Shown piece after piece: positions 46,901-61,487 of a stretch of 64,000 nucleotides of DNA. The notes below the pieces were generated by a model that saw nothing but the letters and a program-made list of their open reading frames with translations, did not search any database and had not been told where the DNA came from. The position numbers and the translations under genes are program-made. Each line of letters starts with the position of its first letter. Position 1 is the first letter of the stretch. Source of the DNA: Polytrichum commune (lineage: Eukaryota; Streptophyta; Polytrichopsida; Polytrichales; Polytrichaceae); the NCBI GenBank assembly GCA_950295325.1, contig OX485806.1, forward strand, positions 39,060,001 through 39,124,000. Reading direction: 5' to 3'.

Positions 46901-49900
46901 CACGTCTTTCAAAATGCTACCATAGCAACCCTTCAACTTGTTGGTTGTTTTGTATGTTATTAATGATCACTTCGTTTCATTTACAAATATTAAAGTTTCA
47001 TGCTGCATCGACAGTTGAATAGAAGCTATGTTTGTGAAATGCAGGATGCTGAAAGAGTTTGTTGCACAAACAAAGGGTACTGATATGGCAGAGGATTCCT
47101 CAGAGCAGCAGTTGATGGAAGTTATGATGAGCAGGTAATATAGCAATTATATCCTCAACTTGTATCATGGTCTGTGGGAAATGGCAAATAAATAAAAATC
47201 CTATGCTAAGAGCCTAGAAAGGGTCAACTCACCTATAAAAACCCTCAATAACAAGCAATTCTGAAGAGGTGCCTGAATGAGAGCAAACGTTGTGTTATTT
47301 TTTGAGTGCAGATATGAGAAAGAATTGACGCATCCATTGAGAAACCTTGTAGGTGGGGAACTTGCCAGGGCGTTGCTTATCCAGGTCACTACCTTGTCTT
47401 TGTTTCTGTCATTATAGGGAGACCACCAGCTGATATGAGGTTGAACACAATAATCAAAACAGCAATCTTTGTATAGTTATGATTTTACATGCCTTGGGCT
47501 ACATAGTGGCTACATAATTTTCAATGAAATGGCTTTCACCTGAAATTGTGAATATCTCTGCGTGCTGTGTACATCTATTGAAGGAATGCTTTTTCTCTTT
47601 TTGCAGATTCAAAAATTGAAGCTTGACATTGAGACGTAAGACTGCTGCCATTTAATTTTATGTGCATGTTATCATCAACATCTTGGACTGTATGTTAAGT
47701 TGATAAGAATCTTCTGCAACCATATCGCTTGATGTGATGGTTCTTGTTTTCTTTGTTCACAGGGCTATGTTGGAGTTAAATCAAATCTTGCGTGCCAATG
47801 AAATAAACTTCGCCATCTTGGCAGCTTTACCAGCCTTATTTGCTGCTGTCTTGCTTGGTTGGCTTGTCAAACAGCCTTTCACGAAGGTTTGCACTTATTT
47901 GTACAGCAACATGCAGTTCTTCTGAGGTTAAAGAAATGCCACATTTGAGCATAATCTTTAAGATCTCATAAATGCTTAGAACTAGTCACTAGACCTTATT
48001 ATTGAGCTCTTTCCAGGTGTCTTAAAAACCCAAGGCCTTAAACTGAATCCCATGGGAACTGAGGGTAAGATGCGTAAGGTCATAATAGTGCTTGGATGGG
48101 TGACCTTTGTAGCATTTGATTTCCTGTGCGTCCTACCACTATGGTCCAAATAATTGCATGGGGGGTATTTGGGTGAACTAGATACTTTCAATGGACCATG
48201 TGGGAACCTAGGACTTGTTTTTGGGGGAGAATAGGTGCAGGCTGCCTTGTCCATGCCTGCTCAAGGTGTTCACCTTTGAGAAAGAGGCAATCTTCTTCAA
48301 GGTCCCTCTAATTCTTGTGATATTCATCTTGGAACGACCCATAGAATAAGACTAACTTGAGATGAAGTAACACTACAATTTGTGCCAGTGGTGACATTAT
48401 TGGTGTCATCTCTGTCTATCACGAAGCATAGCCTGTTTTTTTTAAAAATAATTTTTTAATAATTTTTTTTAATAATTTTAAATTTGGGTTGTTGTTGTTG
48501 CTGATGATTGTTTTATGGTTTCAGGGGAAAGGGGCAGAAGGTCGGGGCAGGAGGGCGCAGTTGCAGCGGCGCATGCTAATGGTGGATGTTGAAAATGCTG
48601 TAATGACTTGTCAAATGTCTGTTGATGAAGGCCAAGTAAGTTCTGAGCCATGCATTGTTGATGTCCACCAAATTGAACAAACGTTTGTTGCTCCAAACCA
48701 TAAACCTTTAAACCTTAAACCCTATCTCAAAGACTTATAATTTTGTGGTATCCTTTGTTTAGGAGGAGGCTGTTGCTCATTTTGGGACGCTCATATATGC
48801 CCTGGATCGTTTGTTTAAGGCTGTCAAGAAGCCTGCCACAGAATCTGGGGAATGGTCAAGGTGAGGTCATCTCTTGTTAATTTCAGATGAATGTACAAGA
48901 AATATGTCTGTCACATGTTTGCCTCAGTTCATTCTGACCCTTCAGAATTCATAGGACTACATTGTAGTGAAATAGAGTTATCTCTGTATTCCTTGAATAG
49001 TAGAAAACTAGATGTCATCCTGTACAGTCTCTAAATTTTATAGTTAGAATGCATAAATCCTGCATCTTAACCCCTAAATGCTCATGCAACCCAAAATGGG
49101 TCGCCACCTAATATTTTGACGGGTTTGCGACCCACTAGGTGGCAATTTACATGGATGGAAGGTATCTATTGGTGTAGGGTGGCACCCCACTACCATGTGG
49201 GTCAAAATAGCATATATAAAAACCACATATTCCAAGCATGTAGGTTTTTTTTGTTAGTTTGGAATTGATTGTTTTGGGAGGCGGTCCCATGAGTTGCTCA
49301 AATGTAGGCTCCAAATTTAGGAGCCATATCTTTCACATTTGATGTCCAATTTGGGTGGGGTTTTTTCCCTTATGACAAGATGACAGTTGTGCACAACTTA
49401 ACCAGTTGGATTTGGAAAGAAAAAAATTAGTGCACATGTTGCTTGCTCCGTGAAAAAGGGGAAATCTCCCAAAATGATCAATCTGTCCTAGCAAATGTGG
49501 TTCGATTGACTTCAACTTTTCAAAAGAAGAATATATGACAGTCTAGTTCACGTTCGTACAATTGGATTTCAGGAAAACAAAGTCTATTTTGCTACATAAC
49601 AGAAAGTTTCAGCACTGGTTTAGGGTTTAGGCCCGAAAATGAAATGTGAAGGCCTGAGTTGTTAAGAGGTTAATCAGCTAGCCTCAATTTGGATACCCTT
49701 TGCATCAATTTGGGCATCAAGTTGGTGGTCTCTTTCTGCTCATTGGAGGTGATGGAAAAAGCATTCCGGTATTTCTAAGCTTTGTGTGATTGGGTAAATC
49801 TGTTGTGGGTTGCGGCATATATTCTGATAATAATTTGTTTCCTATTTGTCCATGACAGTTTGCAGAAGGACATAATAGAATTGGCTAAACCAAGGTTATC

Positions 49901-49979
49901 AACATACTACAAGCTTGCAATTGCAGCACGCATGGAGCGGGTGTATGAGTGCCTGGCGCCTATGCCAAGATTGAAATAG
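40984..49979 (+). CDS. DGS1: DGS1 (digalactosyldiacylglycerol synthase suppressor 1), NCA2-domain mitochondrial protein
   Basis: Exons: 40984-41111, 43092-43209, 43932-44135, 44719-44850, 45218-45391, 45730-45924, 46593-46693, 47045-47134, 47312-47384, 47607-47635, 47763-47886, 48525-48635, 48763-48860, 49859-49979. The frames join to 565 aa, close to the about 600 aa of Arabidopsis DGS1. Conserved blocks include FMMLERGPWAF, ISERVSILVDLRDRLATI, MEVDKMGEK, SQYRRPRTV, LLSIRDDLFETFRKRHRQV, RYEKELTHPLRNLVGGELAR, QKLKLDIETAMLELNQIL and a C-terminal LSTYYKLAIAARMERVYECL, the NCA2 domain. Two hydrophobic segments lie at about 267-285 and 431-449. In Arabidopsis the protein is in the mitochondrial outer membrane, and a point mutant alters galactolipid synthesis. 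Exon 1 and its junction to exon 2 are inferred from a strong GTAAGA donor, frame fit and a weak acceptor. Exon 4 appears to end at a GC donor. The remaining junctions are canonical. Confidence 0.92.
41403..43090. repeat. Tandem duplications filling DGS1 intron 1
   Basis: A unit of about 500 bp at 41403-41900 recurs at about 41925-42400 (shared 'tttcaagtatgttga', 'gtttgtac..gtcga', 'cttgggcat'). Its last part then repeats two more times at about 250-bp spacing, marked by 'caatgtgggtctagtgt' near 42402, 42650 and 42907 (first diverged copy near 41862). Each 250-bp unit carries a pyrimidine run and 'tgtgaagtgaa', the same text as the proposed acceptor of exon 2, so the intron contains several decoy acceptors. 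Confidence 0.8.
44166..44520 (+). mobile_element. 5S-rRNA-derived element, copy in DGS1 intron 3
   Basis: 'ggggtcccatgagaactac' then 'agtgctcggatg' follow the 5S rRNA internal region ('ggatcccatcagaactccg' ... 'tactaggatgggtgacc'). The 3' module 'ggtgttcacctttgaaagg' and 'gttttgggataacatata' matches the copies at 35175 and 48015. It lies in the intron between exons 3 and 4, in the sense orientation. Confidence 0.75.
48015..48425 (+). mobile_element. 5S-rRNA-derived element, copy in DGS1 intron 11
   Basis: 'ctgaatcccatgggaactg' and 'agtgcttggatgggtgacct' match the 5S rRNA core, followed by 'caaggtgttcacctttgaga' and an end near 'ggtgtcatctctg'. It is the least decayed of the three in the 5S-like half. 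Sense orientation, between exons 11 and 12. Confidence 0.78.
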
Positions 49980-50747
49980 TCTTGCTAAGGTAGTGTGCCA
50001 TCATCACTACAAATAAATGTTACTTGGATACTGAATAATACAAGGTGATCAATTTGTCTTGTCCTTTCACTTGTTCTCAATGTGTGTTCCCCTGTGTAGT
50101 GAATAAGGTAATAGTTTTTTGGCTTTTTGTACTCTATTACTTGCAAAGAGTCTAAATAGCAAAGCAACCCAGTACATCTGCCTGGGTAAAGAATGTAGAA
50201 GTGCAATTGGTTACATCTTATCTCAATGGCCAAACTTCAATATGGCATGTTGCTCTATTAGAGTCTATAACCAGATATGACATCTTGATATCTTTCCTCT
50301 CTTGCAAGGAGTACTGCTGCCATGCAACTTTATAGAATGCAACAACACAATCCACTTATTTGGGTTTCCATGGTGCCACTTAAATAGCTTTTAGATTTGT
50401 GGTGGACAAAGTATGTCAAGGATTCATAGTGGTCAAGCATGGGTTGTAATGTACATTCCTTAGGAGTGTTGAAGGGCCAATGAATGAGTTACATTTTCCC
50501 AAAGAGGTAAGTAAGTCAAACCCCCTACTTGTACAAGAGAGTCTCCCTAATTTGAGCATCAAAATATCCTACTCTACATATGAATCAAAACAATTAACTC
50601 AATGGCACCCAAAAGTGATCCCAAGTATTGTGAAACATGACCTATTCAACCAATCATTGCATCTGACATATCACCGCATCCTTTTCGGGCCATCACTTTC
50701 ATAATTAGCCAATTTGGGTCCATACAAGAATCATTCTGCTCCCTAGC
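49980..50747. other. DGS1 3' flank, nothing further recognised
   Basis: Follows the DGS1 stop codon at 49979 and probably includes its 3' UTR. No polyadenylation signal could be assigned with confidence and no other feature was seen. Confidence 0.5.
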
Positions 50748-51000
50748 CTACATTTGTTTTGTCTAATTAGTGTGGGTGGAAAATTCATGTGGGTTGGAAT
50801 TTAATGTGGCCCACATTAATTTTATAGTACTTGCCTTGCCTTGCCTTGCCTTAAATTTTCATCCATATATGCAGATAAAAAAGCCCACACTAATTTTTCA
50901 CACTGAAAATTATAGTTGGCCACTTCAAGTTGTAATAAAAAATATTCTGGGTAGTTGGGAATTAGTGTGACCCACACTAATTAGACAAAATAGTGTAGTG
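50748..51000. mobile_element. Small TIR element, CACTACACTA family
   Basis: 'ttttgtctaattagtgtggg' at 50757 is inverted at 50970-50990. The repeat probably extends outward to CTACACTA-type ends, as near 3727, 6431 and 32795. The length is about 250 bp, with a CTTGC microrepeat inside. The target duplication was not resolved. Confidence 0.6.
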
Positions 51001-52235
51001 TACCAATAGTGGTCATTCACCGTTTTTCTATCCCCAAAACAAGCTTGAGTATCATGTTGTTGGTAGTTTAGTTTCTAACTCTGCTGTGATCCATAATTTT
51101 AGTACTAGAGTCTAGAGTTGTTGGCAAGGAATATTGAAGTGGATAATTAGAAATTATCCAAGGGTGTCTTATGAATCAGGAGAGGATAAGAAATTCTTAC
51201 AACCAATCTCCATGACCTGACCTTGCTTACATTAAAAAAGAAGTCAAATCAAACATTGTGGTTCTTTGAAAATTCGCTTGTATAGAAACTTAGAATCCTA
51301 AACCCTAAACCCTTGAACAACAATTCTTACTGTTGATAAAGTTATCTTGTGATACCAAGTACAACCTAATCTACACTCCAGCTCTACCAAATTAGAAGGG
51401 AGAAATCTACAGTCTCTCTTAGATCATCCTCTTGCACTTCGCTATCAGGAGCTAGTTATATTTTGTCTGTCAACTATTGGTTGTTGGGTTATTTGAGGAT
51501 ATCATACTTTTGAGGTTGGATTGGAACTTCTTCTTAGCTTCCTCCTCAAGATCTCCCTTCCTCAATTCTGGGCCACACCGAACGTGCAAACTATGGGTGG
51601 AAGGCTCTTGACATGTGAATTATCAATTTGAGGTGTGTTGGAGTAGGATTGCTAGAATTGAAAGAACATATTAGAATGACAAGAATCACCCTGTCAAACT
51701 CTCTGTAATGGAGCCTCTTCATGCAAAGATATACCGTAGAGGGCTATCTACTGCACCACTACAATCATCACAATTCCCATATTTGAGAGTAGAAAACTTG
51801 AACAAATATGCTGATTTGAGTCATGTATGATATAGGAAATCCACTAGAAGTCGTTGAGTTAACACCATAAAGAAAATTTACATTTACTTGAATCAAAGAA
51901 GTCATTTATAGTATACAAATACACTTCTAAACACATGCATGAAACTCATTTCATTCTTGCAACATGTCCAAATAGTACATGCATTGACTAATTGGACACG
52001 TGCCAACAATGCCAGAATATGAGACAGATTCAAGTGTAGTCCTATTTGACATGCAACATTGTAATTTTGAAAGCAACATCTTTGTAGGTATTGAATCAAT
52101 CTCTACAAGTTGCAATTATGGTGTAGTGGATTATGGCTCAGACACTGACTTTGTTATTATCATTATGTGTACAAATTGTTGTATAATACTTGATGCTCAA
52201 GCTTACACAATATAACAAGTTAGATGATTGTATAG
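51001..52235. other. AT-rich spacer
   Basis: No coding region, RNA gene or repeat recognised. A 'taaaccctaaaccc' tract near 51300 is a short telomere-like motif. Confidence 0.45.
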
Positions 52236-52239
52236 ACAG

Positions 52240-52712
52240 TGGACACGTCTTTTGACAAACTGGATACAATCATTGGAGAATTGTCTACAGCTACACTTGT
52301 TGCCAAACTAGATACGTGGATACGTCCGTTGATAATGTGGATGCGCCCATTCACCATGTGCATATGTCCATTGACATGGTGGATGCGTCCGTTGACAATA
52401 TGGATACGTCCCCAAACAATGTGGAAATGGTCGAAATAAATGTGGTCAAAATGGATACCCCCATTGTGAAAGTTGTTGTTCCTTGTGTGCAAATTGTCAA
52501 TTTGGTGTGTAATTGCTTGCCCATTCATGTAATAAAACCAAAAGTTAGATAATGATACGGAAACCGGATACGTCCATTGCCAAAGTGGATATGTCTGTTG
52601 GCGTAGTGGATAAGTCCGTTGACGTCGAGGATACATTGGTTGAAGAAGTGGAGTCGTTCGTTGACGAATTTGCGGAGTTGTCCGTTGATGGTGAATTTGT
52701 TGTCGTGCAAAC
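52240..52712. repeat. Degenerate 21-bp minisatellite
   Basis: Units of the form 'gtggatacgtccgttgacaa' recur in register at 21-bp spacing. On the plus strand they read as heptapeptides (VDTSVDN, VDAPIHH, VDASVDN), with the frame preserved over long parts but broken by at least one frameshift and several stops. On the minus strand the same block stays open for 178 codons with GRIHIVN-type heptads. The register suggests a decayed repetitive coding sequence or a satellite whose unit happens to be divisible by three. Confidence 0.75.
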
Positions 52713-52759
52713 GGCTTGCTACATACCCTAGTCCGCCCTGTCAAAAATTGATACAAATC

Positions 52760-54181
52760 ATGTTAATAATATGGGTATGACTTGTCCACTATGCACATTG
52801 TTGCAAGGGCAAGAAAGAATTGCTGCATACAAGCATGTAACAATCCAAATAACATTGCTAAGTTCCTGAACCTATCACTTACCTTTAGCAAGAGAATAAT
52901 CCGACCAAGGATCAAGATTTAACAAGTTGTGATTCTAAAATAAATGATAGCCTAAGTCTTAGTCCTCGTGAAAGAAGGCAATGCCATCTCTTTTATTTAG
53001 AAAGGTTGAAGGAGCATAAAGCTTAAAAATGTTATGAAACAATTTGGCCAACAAGGATGGATGTAGGTACATATGCAATGGATTGTGGTTCATTCATTCC
53101 ATTAGGATCCTTGTAGACTAGGCACAATTATCTTCTCCAAATGAAATCCAATAACTAATTCATTCCGGTGAGTAGACTAATTCAAGGACTCTCAAGATTT
53201 TTAGTTCATGTGACATCAAGCCATCTTCAAAAATTAACATCTAGGCTAAAAGATAATTCAAGACATTTTCATTGGAGGAATGAGATATAGGCTTGCCCAT
53301 ATGCAAATAAGTCCCTCTTGCTAGTTACATACAACAAAATGTACTTTATTTGGACTTTTATTTATCAAGCTAGACTAGAATGGCACATCACTTTACAAAC
53401 TACATATTCAATGAGTTGAGTTTTTGGATGATAATATGTGTCATAGCAACAAGACAACCATCTACTTATTGAGATTGTTTATGGGGCATTACTAGACTGC
53501 TCATGAAACCAGACTATATCATTATCGATGAAAAGTAAATTCCATTTGCAAAGATAGGAAAGGATATGGTTGTTGAAAGACCGACACCAACATCAACCAC
53601 AAGGATTTGCACAGTACAAGTGTGAATGGGGAAAACCATAGTTGTGGTTGATTATGGTGGTTAACCACAACCACCTATAGGTGAGTGACCATTGACTAGA
53701 CAATGAATTTACCACCCAAAACATGTGTTGAAGTGGACATAAACCTAGTGAATGTGTACTAAGGTAGATGGTCTTAAATGTTACTTTTTATTTCACTAGT
53801 TCACTTCTTCTAAGATATTAAAAAATGAGATGAGGATTTGGATGATAATATGGGTAGCAAAACCAAAGCAAGGCCATAGCCACTTTTCTTGTTATTTTCA
53901 GAGTTCAAATGTCAAATATCTTAATATCATTAAAGTGAAAGTTTTCATGTTTATTAAATGATCATATAGGTCCCCCAATTATGTTGATCACTGAACTTAG
54001 AAATGGACCATTATCATATTTGAGCACACAATCCAATCTCCTTTAAACACGTGTCTTTTTGGATCTGTTCTTGAAGCCTTGCTGAACCATGTACAAATCA
54101 AATATATGTGTTTTAATTAGAACAATAACCAAAGAAGATTGTCTACTTACCTTACAATGATAAACAAAAAAGTGGTTTTCT
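52760..54181. other. Spacer downstream of the Hsp70-kinase gene
   Basis: AT-rich, no gene recognised. The part nearest 54182 presumably contains the 3' UTR of the minus-strand kinase fusion gene. Confidence 0.5.
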
Positions 54182-57100
54182 TCAAGAATCGTGTTGGAGA
54201 ATGTGAGGAAGGATTGTCATACCTATCATGAGGGAGCATTTGAGACGCCCCAAGACATCACAAATATCATTGAATGCAGGGCGTTTCGAGGGAGTTGGAT
54301 TCCAGCAATCTGCAATCAAACTGGCAAGGCGCGCAGGGCAATGGCTGGGGATGTGAGGTCGCAAATTGTGGTCCGCTGGATTCGAGGTCATCTTCTTCCG
54401 AAGCTCTGAAACTTCGATACCATACTCGGGAGGTTTTCCGGTCAGAATCTCAATACAGACACCTGCAAAGCTGTAAACGTCCACTTTCAATGGATGGTTG
54501 AGCGGCCGGGTACTGGTAGAACCGAACAATTCGGGCGCCATCCACAGAGTGGTGCCCGTGTTTAGAGTCTGCTTCTCCGGAGTGCAACTCATTTCGATGA
54601 TTTTGGAGAGCCCGAAATCGGCCACTTTGACTCGGATTTCGGAGGCTCCGGGCACGGTACTGTGCTCATACTTGTAAAGAATGTTGGCCGCCTTCAAGTC
54701 TCGATGGACAATTTTCTTCTGGTGAAGGTAATGCATACCTTCCGCGATCTGGAGCATGATGTCAACCGCTTCCAGAAGGTCGAATGGAAATTCTAGGCTT
54801 CGCTCTTCACTGTGCATTCTCTCATGCAGTAGGTTTTGGAGGTCTCCCTTCATGAGCTCCAGAATGAGGGAGAAGCTGTCATTTCTCTCCGCACAGCTCA
54901 AGATGGTCGTGATGTTCGGGTGGGCTAAGTTTGTCAACATCGCTGCTTCCTTCTTGAGACTGTCCCGATTCAAGGCTGTGTCAAAGATCAAACATTTCTC
55001 AGCAAAATATTCTCCAAACCACTCAACCCGATATACAGTGGCGAATGTACCTTTCCCTATCCTCGTAGTCCGTTGTAAATTTTTGTGGTCTACTTTCCAC
55101 AAATGCCCGGAATTAGATGATCCATTCCGTAAGTCGAGGTTTTCTGGGAGAGACAACCGTTCTAGCAAAATGCTTTCCAAATGCTTGGAACCATGTAATT
55201 CTGGTGCTAGTCCTAATTCCTGCACGTTTGATTGTATTGGTGAAATTCCAACAGGAGCTGCTTTCAGTCTCGTCAACAGAGCTTCTTGGTCATGTTTTGC
55301 ATTCTGTAGGATTGTGCGCCTTTCTCTTAGCCTGACGCTACAATCGCTAATTTCTTTGAAGGTCTTCTCCACAGCATCCTTCTCGAGGCCGTTGCGTAGA
55401 AGTGCCATGTACAAATCTAAATTGTAAAGTAGTCTTGAGGTGCGTTCGGTCACGTCCACCAACACAACCGCAGCTTGCAACCACTGGGATTTACAACAAT
55501 CGGTAACAAGCCTCTCGATATCCTTCGCAACAAGGTATATGTTCTTGCACGCTTCTTGACATTGTGGATTGCGTTTAACGGATCTGCGAGCGTGGTTCTC
55601 GGTGCGTGGGACATACTCCTTTGCATCCTTCACGGCCTGAGCAAGCCTCTCAGAAAGATGCCGACATTGACGCTCGTGGATTTGCAATGGACAACTCCGA
55701 GAGTTGCACATGTTGATTACAGTCTCTCCCGAGTCTGCTGCAAATTCTAAAAAGTCCGGAGCTATTGTGCCCGACACCAAGAGTCCTACAGCACCTTGAC
55801 AAACTGCACTCCCAGGGTTAGGAGGGTTGATGATGCGAGGCCGCGGCTCGACATTGTTCTTCAGCGAGAATTGTTGGTAAATCCTGGTCTTTAAGTACTG
55901 CGACCCAGCAAAAGCCCCAACCACTACCATGTACTTGACCGGGGAAGCCAGTACAAAATTTTGTTCAATAAGTGCAAGGATTTGGTCCACAACAGGATCA
56001 TAAACTGACTTCATCTCCGAATACGAGACCTCCAACACATCATATGCTTCTCTCTGATCAGGGTTTCCCATGGCGTTGTCGTATGCCGCCCAATCGGTGG
56101 TCAGCCTGTTTGGGAGTTGGATAATCACACACTCATCCTGCTTCATTTCGGGGTCTCCGAAGCTGAGGTTGATCTCCTCCCAATTATCCATCAGGTTTCT
56201 GTATACACTAGGGTTTTTTATGCTTTCCTTCAAGCATGGTCCAATCTTTTCGTGGAGGAAGTCCATAAACCTGGCATCCAATTCAGAGCCAAAGCAGGAG
56301 GCTTTGTAGGTTCCCATCACTTCTCTCACTCCATGACTCACTTCCTCACCCACAAACTCTTGCACAACAATGTCGGTAGCCTCATCGCCGAAATCTACAA
56401 TCAGAATCCTATCTCCTTTGGAAGGCTTTTGAAACTCGCTCAGGCTCTTAAGGCAGTGGAAAGAAGTAGCCTCTGGCTCCGGAACAAAGACCAGTTGGTA
56501 CGGCCTCATCCCTGCATCTGGAGTACTCTCGACAAGCCCAGCTTCGATCATAAAACTCCTCATCCTTTGTTTTGCCGAGTTCGCCCAGACCGAGGGAAGA
56601 GTCACGCACCATTGAACCATGCTACTCGTCAACTTCTCCCCGTAGTTTTGCTGAAGGGTTCGAAGAACCAGTTTCCCCAACTCCCTTAAATAATCTGTGA
56701 TGACTTGGTCCACCGTTAATTCTGGTGGAATTTTGCTCCTGGCAGGTGATGATAGTTCAGATGAATTATCTGGACTCGCGAGATGCGGATCGAATATATT
56801 CAGAATGTAAACCCCTTCATGCTTGGAATCTTTCTCGAAATCTACGCGGGCGCGGTAACCCCAAGACTTCAGCACCCATGTCTTGGTTTCTGCGTCAACC
56901 TCCTGCTTGTAGTAACTTGCCGCCAAGATTTTGCAGGACGATTTCTGACCTCCCGCCATCGTACAGTTGAAGTATGGGTTGATGGAGATGCCAGGCGTCT
57001 TCAGTTGCGCGTACGCAAAGCCGCAGTGTGTTGTTCCGCAGTACAATCCAACAACAACTTTGGGTTTACAATTAGCTTCGGAAGGAGCCTGCAGCTTTGT

Positions 57101-57250
57101 CCCATCGGCCGAATGTCCAGCTATGTCTTGGTGTAAACTTTCGGTCTTGCGGAAGCAGCTCTCCCCCGTAGTAAGCTGGTGACTTCCGATCTTGCTGAAA
57201 CACTGTCCTACGTTTTGGTGACTTCCAATTCTGCTGGGAGTCTGTCCCAT
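54182..57250 (-). CDS. Hsp70 (HSPA12-like) - helical linker - TKL protein kinase fusion, 1022 aa, intronless
   Basis: One uninterrupted frame from ATG at 57250. Residues about 64-505 align along their length with the neighbouring HSPA12-like protein (DQVITDYLRELGKL, YGEKLTSSMVQWCVTLPS, PEPEATSFHC, INPPNPGSAVCQGAVGLL). Its nucleotide-site motifs are altered: DFGTT reads YCGTT (70-74), DIGGGTAD reads DFGDEATD (286-293), GGFAGS reads GAFAGS. Residues about 511-665 are predicted helical and Cys/Leu-rich (RQCRHLSERLAQAV, SQWLQAAVVLVDVTERTSRL), resembling the four-helix N-terminal modules of MLKL/HeLo-type kinases. Residues about 730-1003 form a kinase: IGKGTFATVY, Lys 752, Glu 768, HRDLKAAN (849-856), DFG (878-880), APE (905-907), so catalysis is expected. 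The first 40 residues are a short 13-residue repeat. It sits 2.3 kb downstream of its paralogue on the same strand. A signalling or immune-receptor role is inferred. Confidence 0.93.
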   Translation of the reverse strand: MGQTPSRIGSHQNVGQCFSKIGSHQLTTGESCFRKTESLHQDIAGHSADGTKLQAPSEANCKPKVVVGLYCGTTHCGFAYAQLKTPGISINPYFNCTMAGGQKSSCKILAASYYKQEVDAETKTWVLKSWGYRARVDFEKDSKHEGVYILNIFDPHLASPDNSSELSSPARSKIPPELTVDQVITDYLRELGKLVLRTLQQNYGEKLTSSMVQWCVTLPSVWANSAKQRMRSFMIEAGLVESTPDAGMRPYQLVFVPEPEATSFHCLKSLSEFQKPSKGDRILIVDFGDEATDIVVQEFVGEEVSHGVREVMGTYKASCFGSELDARFMDFLHEKIGPCLKESIKNPSVYRNLMDNWEEINLSFGDPEMKQDECVIIQLPNRLTTDWAAYDNAMGNPDQREAYDVLEVSYSEMKSVYDPVVDQILALIEQNFVLASPVKYMVVVGAFAGSQYLKTRIYQQFSLKNNVEPRPRIINPPNPGSAVCQGAVGLLVSGTIAPDFLEFAADSGETVINMCNSRSCPLQIHERQCRHLSERLAQAVKDAKEYVPRTENHARRSVKRNPQCQEACKNIYLVAKDIERLVTDCCKSQWLQAAVVLVDVTERTSRLLYNLDLYMALLRNGLEKDAVEKTFKEISDCSVRLRERRTILQNAKHDQEALLTRLKAAPVGISPIQSNVQELGLAPELHGSKHLESILLERLSLPENLDLRNGSSNSGHLWKVDHKNLQRTTRIGKGTFATVYRVEWFGEYFAEKCLIFDTALNRDSLKKEAAMLTNLAHPNITTILSCAERNDSFSLILELMKGDLQNLLHERMHSEERSLEFPFDLLEAVDIMLQIAEGMHYLHQKKIVHRDLKAANILYKYEHSTVPGASEIRVKVADFGLSKIIEMSCTPEKQTLNTGTTLWMAPELFGSTSTRPLNHPLKVDVYSFAGVCIEILTGKPPEYGIEVSELRKKMTSNPADHNLRPHIPSHCPARLASLIADCWNPTPSKRPAFNDICDVLGRLKCSLMIGMTILPHILQHDS

Positions 57251-57280
57251 GTTTAGGTGACTTAATCCAATCTTGCAGGT
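57178..57280 (-). repeat. 39-bp in-frame repeat at the N-terminus of the fusion gene
   Basis: 'ggtgacttccgatcttgctg', 'ggtgacttccaattctgctg' and 'ggtgacttaatccaatcttg' start at 57178, 57217 and 57256, exactly 39 bp apart. On the coding strand each gives a 13-residue unit ending in IGSH(Q). The outermost copy extends past the proposed start codon into the leader. Confidence 0.8.
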
Positions 57281-59561: not shown

Positions 59562-61487
59562 TCAAAAGACTTCCACCGGAAGCTCCATCCTTTTTCCACC
59601 GGCCACGAAGTTCATGGCTTCGGCTTTGACTTCTATAATGGATCTTCCAAAGTAAAGAGACAACTTCACCTGTCGATCCTTATCCAACATTGCGTCTCCC
59701 GAGATGTCTATAATGATCTCCCCCTCCTTCTCCACCCGATTTCCTATTGTGTACCTAGGATCAGGGTCCTCAGAGCTGAAAAGCTCAAACTTCATCGTCC
59801 TCTGCCCCGTGTATACTGGCTTGTGTGTTTTGCTGATGCAGTGATCCACATCCAAAGGATCACCCTTCCTCACGTAGATACTAAACCTGTTATTGCACTT
59901 AGCAATACCATCTACCCACTCTTTGAACTCGGGCTTATCATTGTCCTCCTCGAAGGGCCTAACACAGAGGAACCCATAAGTTTTCCTTGCAATTCTGGAA
60001 ACAATGACATTAGGGTTAAGTGCCAGGGCAACTGCACCCTGGCAAACTGCACTGCCAGGGTTAGGAGGGCTGATGATGTGGGAGACTCTGCCGGCGAACC
60101 TCTTTTTGATGCTGTCCATGAGATACTGGGAACCGGCAAACCCACCCACCACCACCATAACTTTCACTTTATCCTTCAACCTGACAAGCTGCTCATTGAT
60201 AAGCTGCAGGTTCTGTTCAATCACAGGATCAAAAATCCTCTGCATATCTGCATAGGAAACCTCGAGATCATCATAATTCTCCCTAAGTGGCCCACCCTTT
60301 TCCGTGTCGTATTTCTCCCAGTCGGAGACCAGTTTGTTGGGGAGGTTGATGTCCATGGACTCATCCTTCGTGGATGGGTCGCCAAAACTCAGTTTCATCT
60401 CCTCCCATCTCTTGATTAGATTGGTGTAGACACTGGGGTTTTGCTTCATGCACTCCTTCAAGCAGGGTCCAATTGTTTCATGAAGGAAATCTACAAACCT
60501 AGCATCCACGTATGTGCCGCCACATAATGCTCCGGAGCTCTTTGTGATCTCTTTCACCCTGTAGCATTCCCCTGAGCTGATGACCTCTTGCACCACAATG
60601 TCGGCAGTTCCACCGCCGATGTCTGCCACCAGAAGCTTATCCCCGGCTCGGAGGTGGGTTTCGTTCATGGTTTTGTGGCAATGGAAAGAGGCAGCTTCTG
60701 GCTCCAGAACAATTACAAGTGGATGTGGACTGCCATCCACTCCGTCCACCAGCCCCGCGGCCACCATGAAGCTCTTCATTTTCTGCTTTGCCGAGTTATC
60801 CCAGATGGACGGCACCGTCACGCACCACTGGATGGCCTGCTTCGTCAACTGCTCTCCGTAATTCTGCTGCAGGGTTTTCAGAATCAATTTCCCCATCTCC
60901 CGTAGGTAATCCGTGATGACTTGCTCCACTTTCAAACCTTCCGGGAGGGCTGTGGCAGACAATTTCCCGGATTTGGGTGGCGCCAGATGCAACTTCACCC
61001 GGGTGACGTAATGCCCCAGAGTGGGTTTGATCGGGTCCTCCAAGCCCGCACGCGCCGCCGGCTTCTTGCTATTAATTCGGTACCTGCGGACGGCTTGGAA
61101 ATCCCTCTCAAACTCAGCACGAGCAGGGTACCCCCAAGACTTGAACGCCCAGGTCTTGGTCCCGGCACCGCCCTGCTCCTTGTAGTAACTGCCTGTGAGG
61201 GTTTTGCAATAGGGTTTCTCCCCTCCCACCATAGCATAATTGTAGTATGTGAATATGTCGTCGCGCTTCGTGACATGCGCATAGGCGAATCCAGAGAATG
61301 TGGTGCCGAAATCCAGACCGACCATTACTCTCGGCTCCGAAAGCACATCCGTCACATGATGTCTCGACGAGCCCATATCTCTTGGTGCGTTCTGCAATCT
61401 TAGACTCCGTGATAAGAGAGCTGGGGCACGGATGAATCTCCTGGATTCGGAGTATATAGGAAGCAAATGCAATTGCACCACTTTCAA
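59562..61487 (-). CDS. HSPA12-like Hsp70 family protein, 641 aa (or 604 aa), intronless
   Basis: Single frame with the Hsp70 ATPase motifs intact: GLDFGTTFSGFAYAHV (57-72), CVTVPSIWDNSAKQKM, VLEPEAASFHC, LVADIGGGTADIVVQE, and VVVGGFAGSQYL followed by SPPNPGSAVCQGAVALAL. The distant, insert-containing form (about 640 aa, no classic peptide-binding domain, the tail KRMELPVEVF) fits the HSPA12A/B subfamily rather than canonical Hsp70; human HSPA12A is of similar length. HSPA12 proteins bind ATP, but their chaperone role is poorly defined. Start choice: the longest frame begins at 61487, but a Met at 61376 (MGSSRHH) lies just before the conserved domain and follows an acceptor-like 'attgcag', so a shorter protein or an upstream leader intron is possible. 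The upstream 61.8-62.3 kb is GC-richer and leader-like. Tandem paralogue of the fusion gene downstream. Confidence 0.93.
   Translation of the reverse strand: MKVVQLHLLPIYSESRRFIRAPALLSRSLRLQNAPRDMGSSRHHVTDVLSEPRVMVGLDFGTTFSGFAYAHVTKRDDIFTYYNYAMVGGEKPYCKTLTGSYYKEQGGAGTKTWAFKSWGYPARAEFERDFQAVRRYRINSKKPAARAGLEDPIKPTLGHYVTRVKLHLAPPKSGKLSATALPEGLKVEQVITDYLREMGKLILKTLQQNYGEQLTKQAIQWCVTVPSIWDNSAKQKMKSFMVAAGLVDGVDGSPHPLVIVLEPEAASFHCHKTMNETHLRAGDKLLVADIGGGTADIVVQEVISSGECYRVKEITKSSGALCGGTYVDARFVDFLHETIGPCLKECMKQNPSVYTNLIKRWEEMKLSFGDPSTKDESMDINLPNKLVSDWEKYDTEKGGPLRENYDDLEVSYADMQRIFDPVIEQNLQLINEQLVRLKDKVKVMVVVGGFAGSQYLMDSIKKRFAGRVSHIISPPNPGSAVCQGAVALALNPNVIVSRIARKTYGFLCVRPFEEDNDKPEFKEWVDGIAKCNNRFSIYVRKGDPLDVDHCISKTHKPVYTGQRTMKFELFSSEDPDPRYTIGNRVEKEGEIIIDISGDAMLDKDRQVKLSLYFGRSIIEVKAEAMNFVAGGKRMELPVEVF

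Follow-up and report, generated by a model that had tools for sequence, protein, structure and literature searches.

Within 64,000 nucleotides of Polytrichum commune DNA (GenBank assembly GCA_950295325.1, contig OX485806.1, positions 39,060,001 to 39,124,000 of the forward strand; hereafter the window, whose numbering we use throughout), a gene on the minus strand encodes an Hsp70-type domain, a helical module and a protein kinase in one protein, which we call the fusion. Its open reading frame runs from an ATG at 57250 to a stop codon at 54182, specifies 1022 amino acids with zero internal stops, and is preceded by 12 additional open codons. An earlier note made from the sequence had described this single unbroken frame of 1022 codons and the order of its three parts, ending in a complete kinase, and had dismissed a chance read-through. 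All three statements hold: given the local base composition, a single frame this long would stay open with a probability of about 1e-23.5, and Pfam, PDB matches and alignments agree on the domain order. The three-part composition of the protein is near certain. Pfam searches with the fusion protein itself gave a strong match to a kinase (PF00069, residues 727-997, E 2.5e-47) and weak, sub-threshold matches to DUF1221 (E 0.024) and HSP70 (E 0.053). The features of the locus are as follows, with the evidence in brackets.

54182..57250, minus strand: open reading frame of the fusion, complete, 1022 codons plus stop (frame list, chance estimate)
57080..57250, minus strand: N-terminal tail, residues 1-57 (sequence)
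55769..57079, minus strand: Hsp70-type nucleotide-binding domain, residues 58-494, with degenerate ATP-site motifs (paralog alignments, tree)
57020..57049, minus strand: broken phosphate-1 motif GLYCGTTHCG (paralog alignment)
56372..56395, minus strand: broken phosphate-2 motif DFGDEATD (paralog alignment)
55397..55759, minus strand: predicted HeLo/DUF1221 helical module, residues about 498-618 (profile matches to 6lba and 6ka4)
55106..55381, minus strand: predicted brace helix and linker, residues about 624-715 (low-confidence model, family profile against 6lba)
54254..55075, minus strand: TKL-type protein kinase, residues 726-999, catalytic residues intact (Pfam, PDB matches, alignment)
59562..61487, minus strand: tandem Hsp70 paralog; ATP-site motifs intact, C-terminal domain present (alignment, tree)

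The protein begins with MGQTPSR, which fits the myristoylation pattern MGxxxS[KR]. Because the start codon sits within a 39-bp tandem repeat (57177-57263), the first ~30 residues and this myristoylation-like start are the least certain part of the protein.

Residues 62-496 of the fusion are 49.8% identical to the neighbouring gene at 59562-61487, which itself matches Pfam HSP70 (E 6.5e-11). A profile built from the fusion Hsp70 part and five paralogs, out of about 12 other Hsp70-type loci in this genome, matched DnaK (best E 1.4e-5) and BiP, and by sequence the part is an Hsp70-type nucleotide-binding domain. The label 'HSPA12-like', which the earlier note gave to it, is a putative one, and we keep it as an assumption. 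A tree built from 10 of this genome's Hsp70-type sequences, with near-duplicates and fragments left out, places the fusion as sister to the tandem gene plus L003, a near-copy of that gene, with a support of 100/98. The neighbour extends ~150 residues beyond the shared region as a C-terminal domain. The fusion lacks this domain, and when the window was searched with it, the neighbour itself was returned and otherwise matches at chance level (E 1.2 or worse). The Hsp70 part of the fusion is a nucleotide-binding domain only. The earlier note's alignment with the next gene throughout is accordingly correct for this domain and fails for the neighbour's last ~150 residues. Sequence comparison and tree indicate that the Hsp70 part arose as a tandem copy of the next gene and has diverged from it; the predicted HeLo-kinase described below stands in place of the C-terminal domain. 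The fusion shares the nucleotide-binding domain with HSPA12-type Hsp70 proteins, if that label applies, and has a tandem paralog adjoining it; it differs from them by its broken ATP-site motifs and by the replacement of the C-terminal domain.

The near-copy of the window's Hsp70 gene (L003 / L017) lies about 3 kb past the window end, is ~95% identical to it over the match, and its frame ends inside the C-terminal domain. L035 and L042 (G000:C3:52.96 Mb) are divergent Hsp70-type frames; L035 seems to carry the C-terminal domain twice, and L042 stops near the border of the nucleotide-binding domain.

The earlier note had called the Hsp70 part an ATPase domain, a term that comparison with the five aligned paralogs puts in doubt. 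In Hsp70 proteins, the motifs compared are those that bind ATP. The phosphate-1 motif reads GLDFGTTFSG in the four paralogs that cover it and GLYCGTTHCG in the fusion, and phosphate-2 reads D[IV]GGGT[AT]D in all five and DFGDEATD in the fusion. Two further ATP-site motifs, LCGGT[YH]VD and VVGGF in the paralogs, are SCFGSELD and VVGAF in the fusion. Of the six sequences in the alignment, the fusion alone has altered ATP-site motifs, and it lacks the set of intact phosphate-1, phosphate-2 and adenosine motifs of an Hsp70 ATPase. Because motifs kept by all five paralogs are lost, a pseudo-ATPase is more likely, and the Hsp70 part is probably no ATPase.

Outside the ATP site much of the domain is conserved. 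The fusion retains 112 of the 160 columns that are invariant in the paralogs. Codons of the fusion and the neighbour differ at rates of 0.29, 0.26 and 0.55 at positions 1, 2 and 3 (419 codons), and the NG86 method gave, for the same number of codons, a nonsynonymous divergence (dN) of 0.33 and a synonymous divergence (dS) of 2.37, the latter being saturated and averaging both lineages. Unselected sequence at that distance would hardly retain an open frame and 55% identity, which argues that sequence and frame are under constraint. It appears that the Hsp70 part has kept its frame and fold-level similarity and lost its ATP site.

These data bear on the idea that the Hsp70 part is a passenger, slowly decaying or only stabilizing the protein, with the kinase as the sole working part. 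The branch of the fusion in the Hsp70 tree (0.73) is about five times longer than the stem of its sister group (0.14), as this idea would predict. Its count of changed sites is also the highest: taking one row per near-identical pair, and sites invariant in the other three lineages, 35 of 130 such sites are altered in the fusion, compared with 8 of 103, 14 of 109 and 29 of 124 (L015) in the other lineages. Nevertheless, there is no stop or frame break despite the saturated silent sites, and the third codon position differs about twice as often as the first and second, and we consider a passenger improbable. What sets the fusion apart appears to be the location of its changes and not their number.

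The junction between the Hsp70 and helical parts lies in one frame without a gap. Codon-3 GC shows no step across it (0.51 in residues 401-500 and 0.52 in residues 501-600), and similarity to helical-kinase relatives begins exactly at the Hsp70 border, where PDFLEFAADSGETVIN of the fusion aligns with the start of the helical module of the related loci L004 and L019. An assembly or gene-model artefact that wrongly joined two genes would have to be considered for a fusion known from one assembly, but the continuous frame, the alignment of PDFLEFAADSGETVIN with relatives such as L004 and the even codon-3 GC make this very improbable.

The helical-kinase half belongs to a family with many members in this genome. 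Residues 499-1011 of the fusion are 38% identical to L004, and among the matches listed, 41 of 47 rows (about 39 loci) consist of the helical-kinase half without Hsp70; these counts are lower bounds, as 45 of 813 candidates were scored. For alignments and profiles we used the fusion with 13 or with 14 of the about 39 loci, leaving out, for length or incompleteness, L009-L014 from the 14-member set and L010-L014 from the 15-member set. The top two PDB matches of the 14-member profile were 6lba (E 1e-83) and 6ka4 (E 3.4e-76), which we take to be Arabidopsis MLKL3 and MLKL2. Within this profile the helical stretch scored 1.8e-6 in 6lba and 0.051 in 6ka4, and the profile also aligned with the 6lba stretch between bundle and kinase. 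A profile of the helices only (15 members) again found 6lba (E 4.8e-9) and 6ka4 (E 2.1e-4), followed by a third PDB entry at 0.025; its best stretches scored 6.8e-7 and 0.079 in 6lba and 6ka4, respectively. Single sequences gave fainter signals. Five of the 15 members touched DUF1221 at E values up to 1, all under the curated cut-offs, and the fusion was the best of them (E 0.002, 18.1 bits compared with the Pfam cut-off of 25); L013 matched MLKL_N (E 1.1e-5) and L049 matched RPW8 (E 0.0013), both also below cut-off. Structure models had predicted local distance difference test (pLDDT) values of 29.6 and 52.8, and fold searches with them were not decisive; the helix positions of the module and the long brace helix are taken from a low-confidence model. 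6lba is termed an MLKL protein in PMC10881975, and PMC10951266 treats HeLo and DUF1221 as the same. By profile, the helical module is homologous to the HeLo/DUF1221 bundle of solved plant MLKLs, and the kinase lies C-terminal to bundle and brace as in these proteins. Hence, the helical module and kinase together appear to be a plant MLKL-type HeLo/DUF1221 kinase.

The earlier note's TKL assignment and its finding of every catalytic kinase motif are both well founded. RAF, MAP3K9 and CTR1 kinases are among the best PDB matches of the fusion kinase, and the glycine loop, the VAIK-type lysine, the alphaC glutamate, HRDLKAAN, DFG and APE are all present. All 14 aligned helical-kinase members have the VAIK-type lysine, alphaC Glu, HRD Asp, DFG Asp and APE; deviations comprise one DRD for HRD, one DLG for DFG, a partial glycine loop in L006 and a changed one in L020. 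The fusion thus has an active-looking TKL kinase, judged from its motifs. The same holds for wheat Pm13, which is reported with active-kinase residues, whereas the Arabidopsis MLKLs are pseudokinases (PMC10951266). The order of bundle, brace and kinase in the fusion is that of the plant MLKL or DUF1221 kinases (wheat Pm13, Arabidopsis MLKLs; 6lba, 6ka4), which differ in that the HeLo module of the fusion is internal, behind an Hsp70-type domain. The helical module of the earlier note is an already known type of HeLo/DUF1221 bundle with brace. Each half comes from a known family, and the unusual part is the Hsp70 half ahead of the HeLo-kinase module.

HeLo domains of MLKL, HET-S and plant relatives are tied to cell death (PMC9950082, PMC12881547). 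Together with the HeLo identity of the module by profile and DUF1221 match, this raises the possibility that the bundle is an executioner as in MLKL, with the Hsp70 part as a solubility cap whose removal or rearrangement would permit membrane attack, and the kinase as trigger. HeLo and RPW8-type domains are said to depend on an extreme N-terminal helix (PMC12881547), but in the fusion the bundle comes after about 497 residues, and its first helix is not free at the N-terminus. Moreover, this first helix, PDFLEFAADSGETVINMC, is acidic with a net charge of -4, and the kinase retains its catalytic residues, unlike the Arabidopsis MLKL pseudokinases (PMC10951266). On balance we find an executioner role unlikely.

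A related module occurs on NB-ARC-LRR receptors in the same genome. At L027 a helical-kinase frame has an NB-ARC frame behind it, and we examined eight loci (L049-L056, where L049 is the locus of L027) chosen by frame length and position, not by tree. In all eight, three frames follow one another on the same strand: a helical-kinase frame, one carrying P-loop and GLPL motifs, and one with LRR-like repeats; the pattern HRD[LMI]K is present in the helical-kinase frame of seven of them. Pfam, run on two frames, identified NB-ARC (E 3.4e-34, L049) and LRR (E 2.9e-115, L051). The modules of this group are about 31% identical to that of the fusion. No NB-ARC or LRR was found after the kinase of the fusion itself, the NB-ARC having been sought within 6.2 kb downstream and the LRR in the frame list. 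Moss PNL receptors (protein kinase-NBS-LRR) have been described (PMC3352924), and in all eight loci of this group the related helical-kinase module forms the N-terminal part; the PNL switch is an NB-ARC and LRR after the kinase, whereas the fusion has a degenerate Hsp70 ahead of the module. PNL genes have a phase-0 intron and are found in mosses and not in liverworts (PMC3352924), and the gap at L049 is, by eye, compatible with a phase-0 intron. Kinase-NLRs also exist beyond mosses, for example wheat Tsn1 (PMC11218826). L049-L056 (G000:C6 and C5) are close-copy kinase-NB-ARC-LRR genes with a HeLo-type module ahead of the kinase, and at least these PNL-type genes may be better called HeLo-kinase-NLRs.

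In the fusion, a kinase is joined in frame to an unrelated domain, as in the cereal kinase fusion proteins Lr9, Sr43 and Pm13. One published reading of such proteins is that the added domain perceives and the kinase is the output (PMC10951266). Pm13, which is of MLKL type, confers resistance to powdery mildew, and this resistance is lost when HeLo, brace or kinase is mutated (PMC10951266). Among cereal kinase fusion proteins, the available parts of the literature searched turned up no Hsp70 partner, and no Hsp70-HeLo-kinase protein appeared in the open PMC literature as far as its text was available, a scope that excludes bioRxiv and most subscription papers. A search there for a fungal counterpart combining Hsp70 and HeLo likewise gave none. 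Integrated domains in NLRs of nonflowering plants include known effector targets (PMC11218826); HSP70 is absent from the main text of that paper.

The explanation we tentatively favour is that the fusion is a kinase-fusion receptor whose dead Hsp70 serves as an integrated sensor or bait. In the proposed order of events, a tandem copy of the Hsp70-type gene would have lost its C-terminal domain and been joined in frame, without interruption, to a plant MLKL-type HeLo-kinase gene; the Hsp70 part would then have lost its ATP site while its overall sequence was kept, and would now be a binding surface. The loss of the ATP site with retention of the overall sequence makes a binding surface the most likely role of this part. 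It may mimic the intact neighbouring chaperones, and a candidate ligand would be a pathogen factor directed at these chaperones, or a chaperone partner that has changed. Binding would relieve or cluster the HeLo-brace region, the kinase would be activated in trans, and a defence or cell-death signal could follow. By analogy, the place of the sensor may be taken by a dead Hsp70 that derives from an intact neighbour, at the opposite end of the module from NB-ARC-LRR. A bolder version holds that mosses possess a further class of intracellular receptor, an Hsp70-based counterpart of NLRs, where a dead Hsp70 replaces the NB-ARC-LRR sensor on a related HeLo-kinase module and guards the chaperones from which it was copied; we regard this as rather unlikely. 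If it were true, a single genome would use one kind of output module, a HeLo bundle with kinase, for NB-ARC-LRR receptors as well as for a protein fronted by Hsp70, which would show that plants can recruit Hsp70 domains as sensors in immunity or stress. The fusion would then also offer a direct test of a HeLo-kinase module with a swapped sensor and a natural example of an Hsp70-type domain retained without its ATP site.

Several observations weigh against the sensor reading. The link of the fusion to immunity appears to be by family and not direct. The NB-ARC of L049 matched none of 14 other helical-kinase loci, for which 0.9-2.8 kb downstream were searched (L009 and L010, with 2 bases downstream, were not included), nor anything at E 1e-3 in positions 48000-54181 of the window, the 6.2 kb downstream of the fusion. 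In the kinase frame the eight NB-ARC loci are 86-100% identical to L027, and because they are so alike they represent one recent expansion. There is a single copy of the fusion, and its HeLo bundle is internal where an extreme N-terminal helix is said to be needed (PMC12881547). L015 has altered nearly as many otherwise invariant sites as the fusion, and the synonymous divergence behind the constraint estimate is saturated. ATP motifs also look altered, by eye, in L035 and L042, which lie outside the alignment; such loss therefore requires no fusion. Finally, the Hsp70 part may still bind nucleotide in a non-canonical way.

Some of these points would suit a proteostasis or heat-stress kinase, in which the Hsp70 part binds clients, co-chaperones or nucleotide in an altered way and its occupancy regulates the kinase in ordinary stress and not in immunity. 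Hsp70 proteins sense unfolded protein, the Hsp70 part is under constraint, and the NB-ARC link of the kinase family is limited to one group. However, the neighbour's C-terminal domain is missing in the fusion and the ATP-site motifs are broken, which makes a classical client cycle unlikely, and we rate a stress kinase as doubtful, on a par with the executioner role. The sensor or bait reading remains our tentative preference.

In a search for a second Hsp70-kinase fusion, we compared the HeLo-kinase segment with 24 Hsp70-side locus sequences, some of them overlapping, and found L044 only, besides the fusion itself. L044 (G000:C1:75847771-75851310) has a decayed Hsp70 piece and, ~0.8 kb before it on the same strand, a broken kinase piece. 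None of 17 helical-kinase queries matched in the 2.1 kb upstream, so that no HeLo part was found there, and we rejected L044 as a second fusion.

Just downstream of the fusion gene, at 52220-52756 of the window, lies a repeat-rich frame with imperfect 21-bp tandem repeats that is unlikely to be a gene. Elsewhere in the helical-kinase family, L009-L012 (G000:C3:43.67-43.81 Mb) have a helical-kinase frame that continues in frame for some hundreds of residues; by eye these resemble a degenerate second kinase, and Pfam found one kinase only in L009. L013 and L014 (G000:C1:10.90 and 11.03 Mb) each consist of one frame, of 1167 and 1137 codons respectively, that holds two tandem helical-kinase units, and Pfam identified two kinase stretches in L013.

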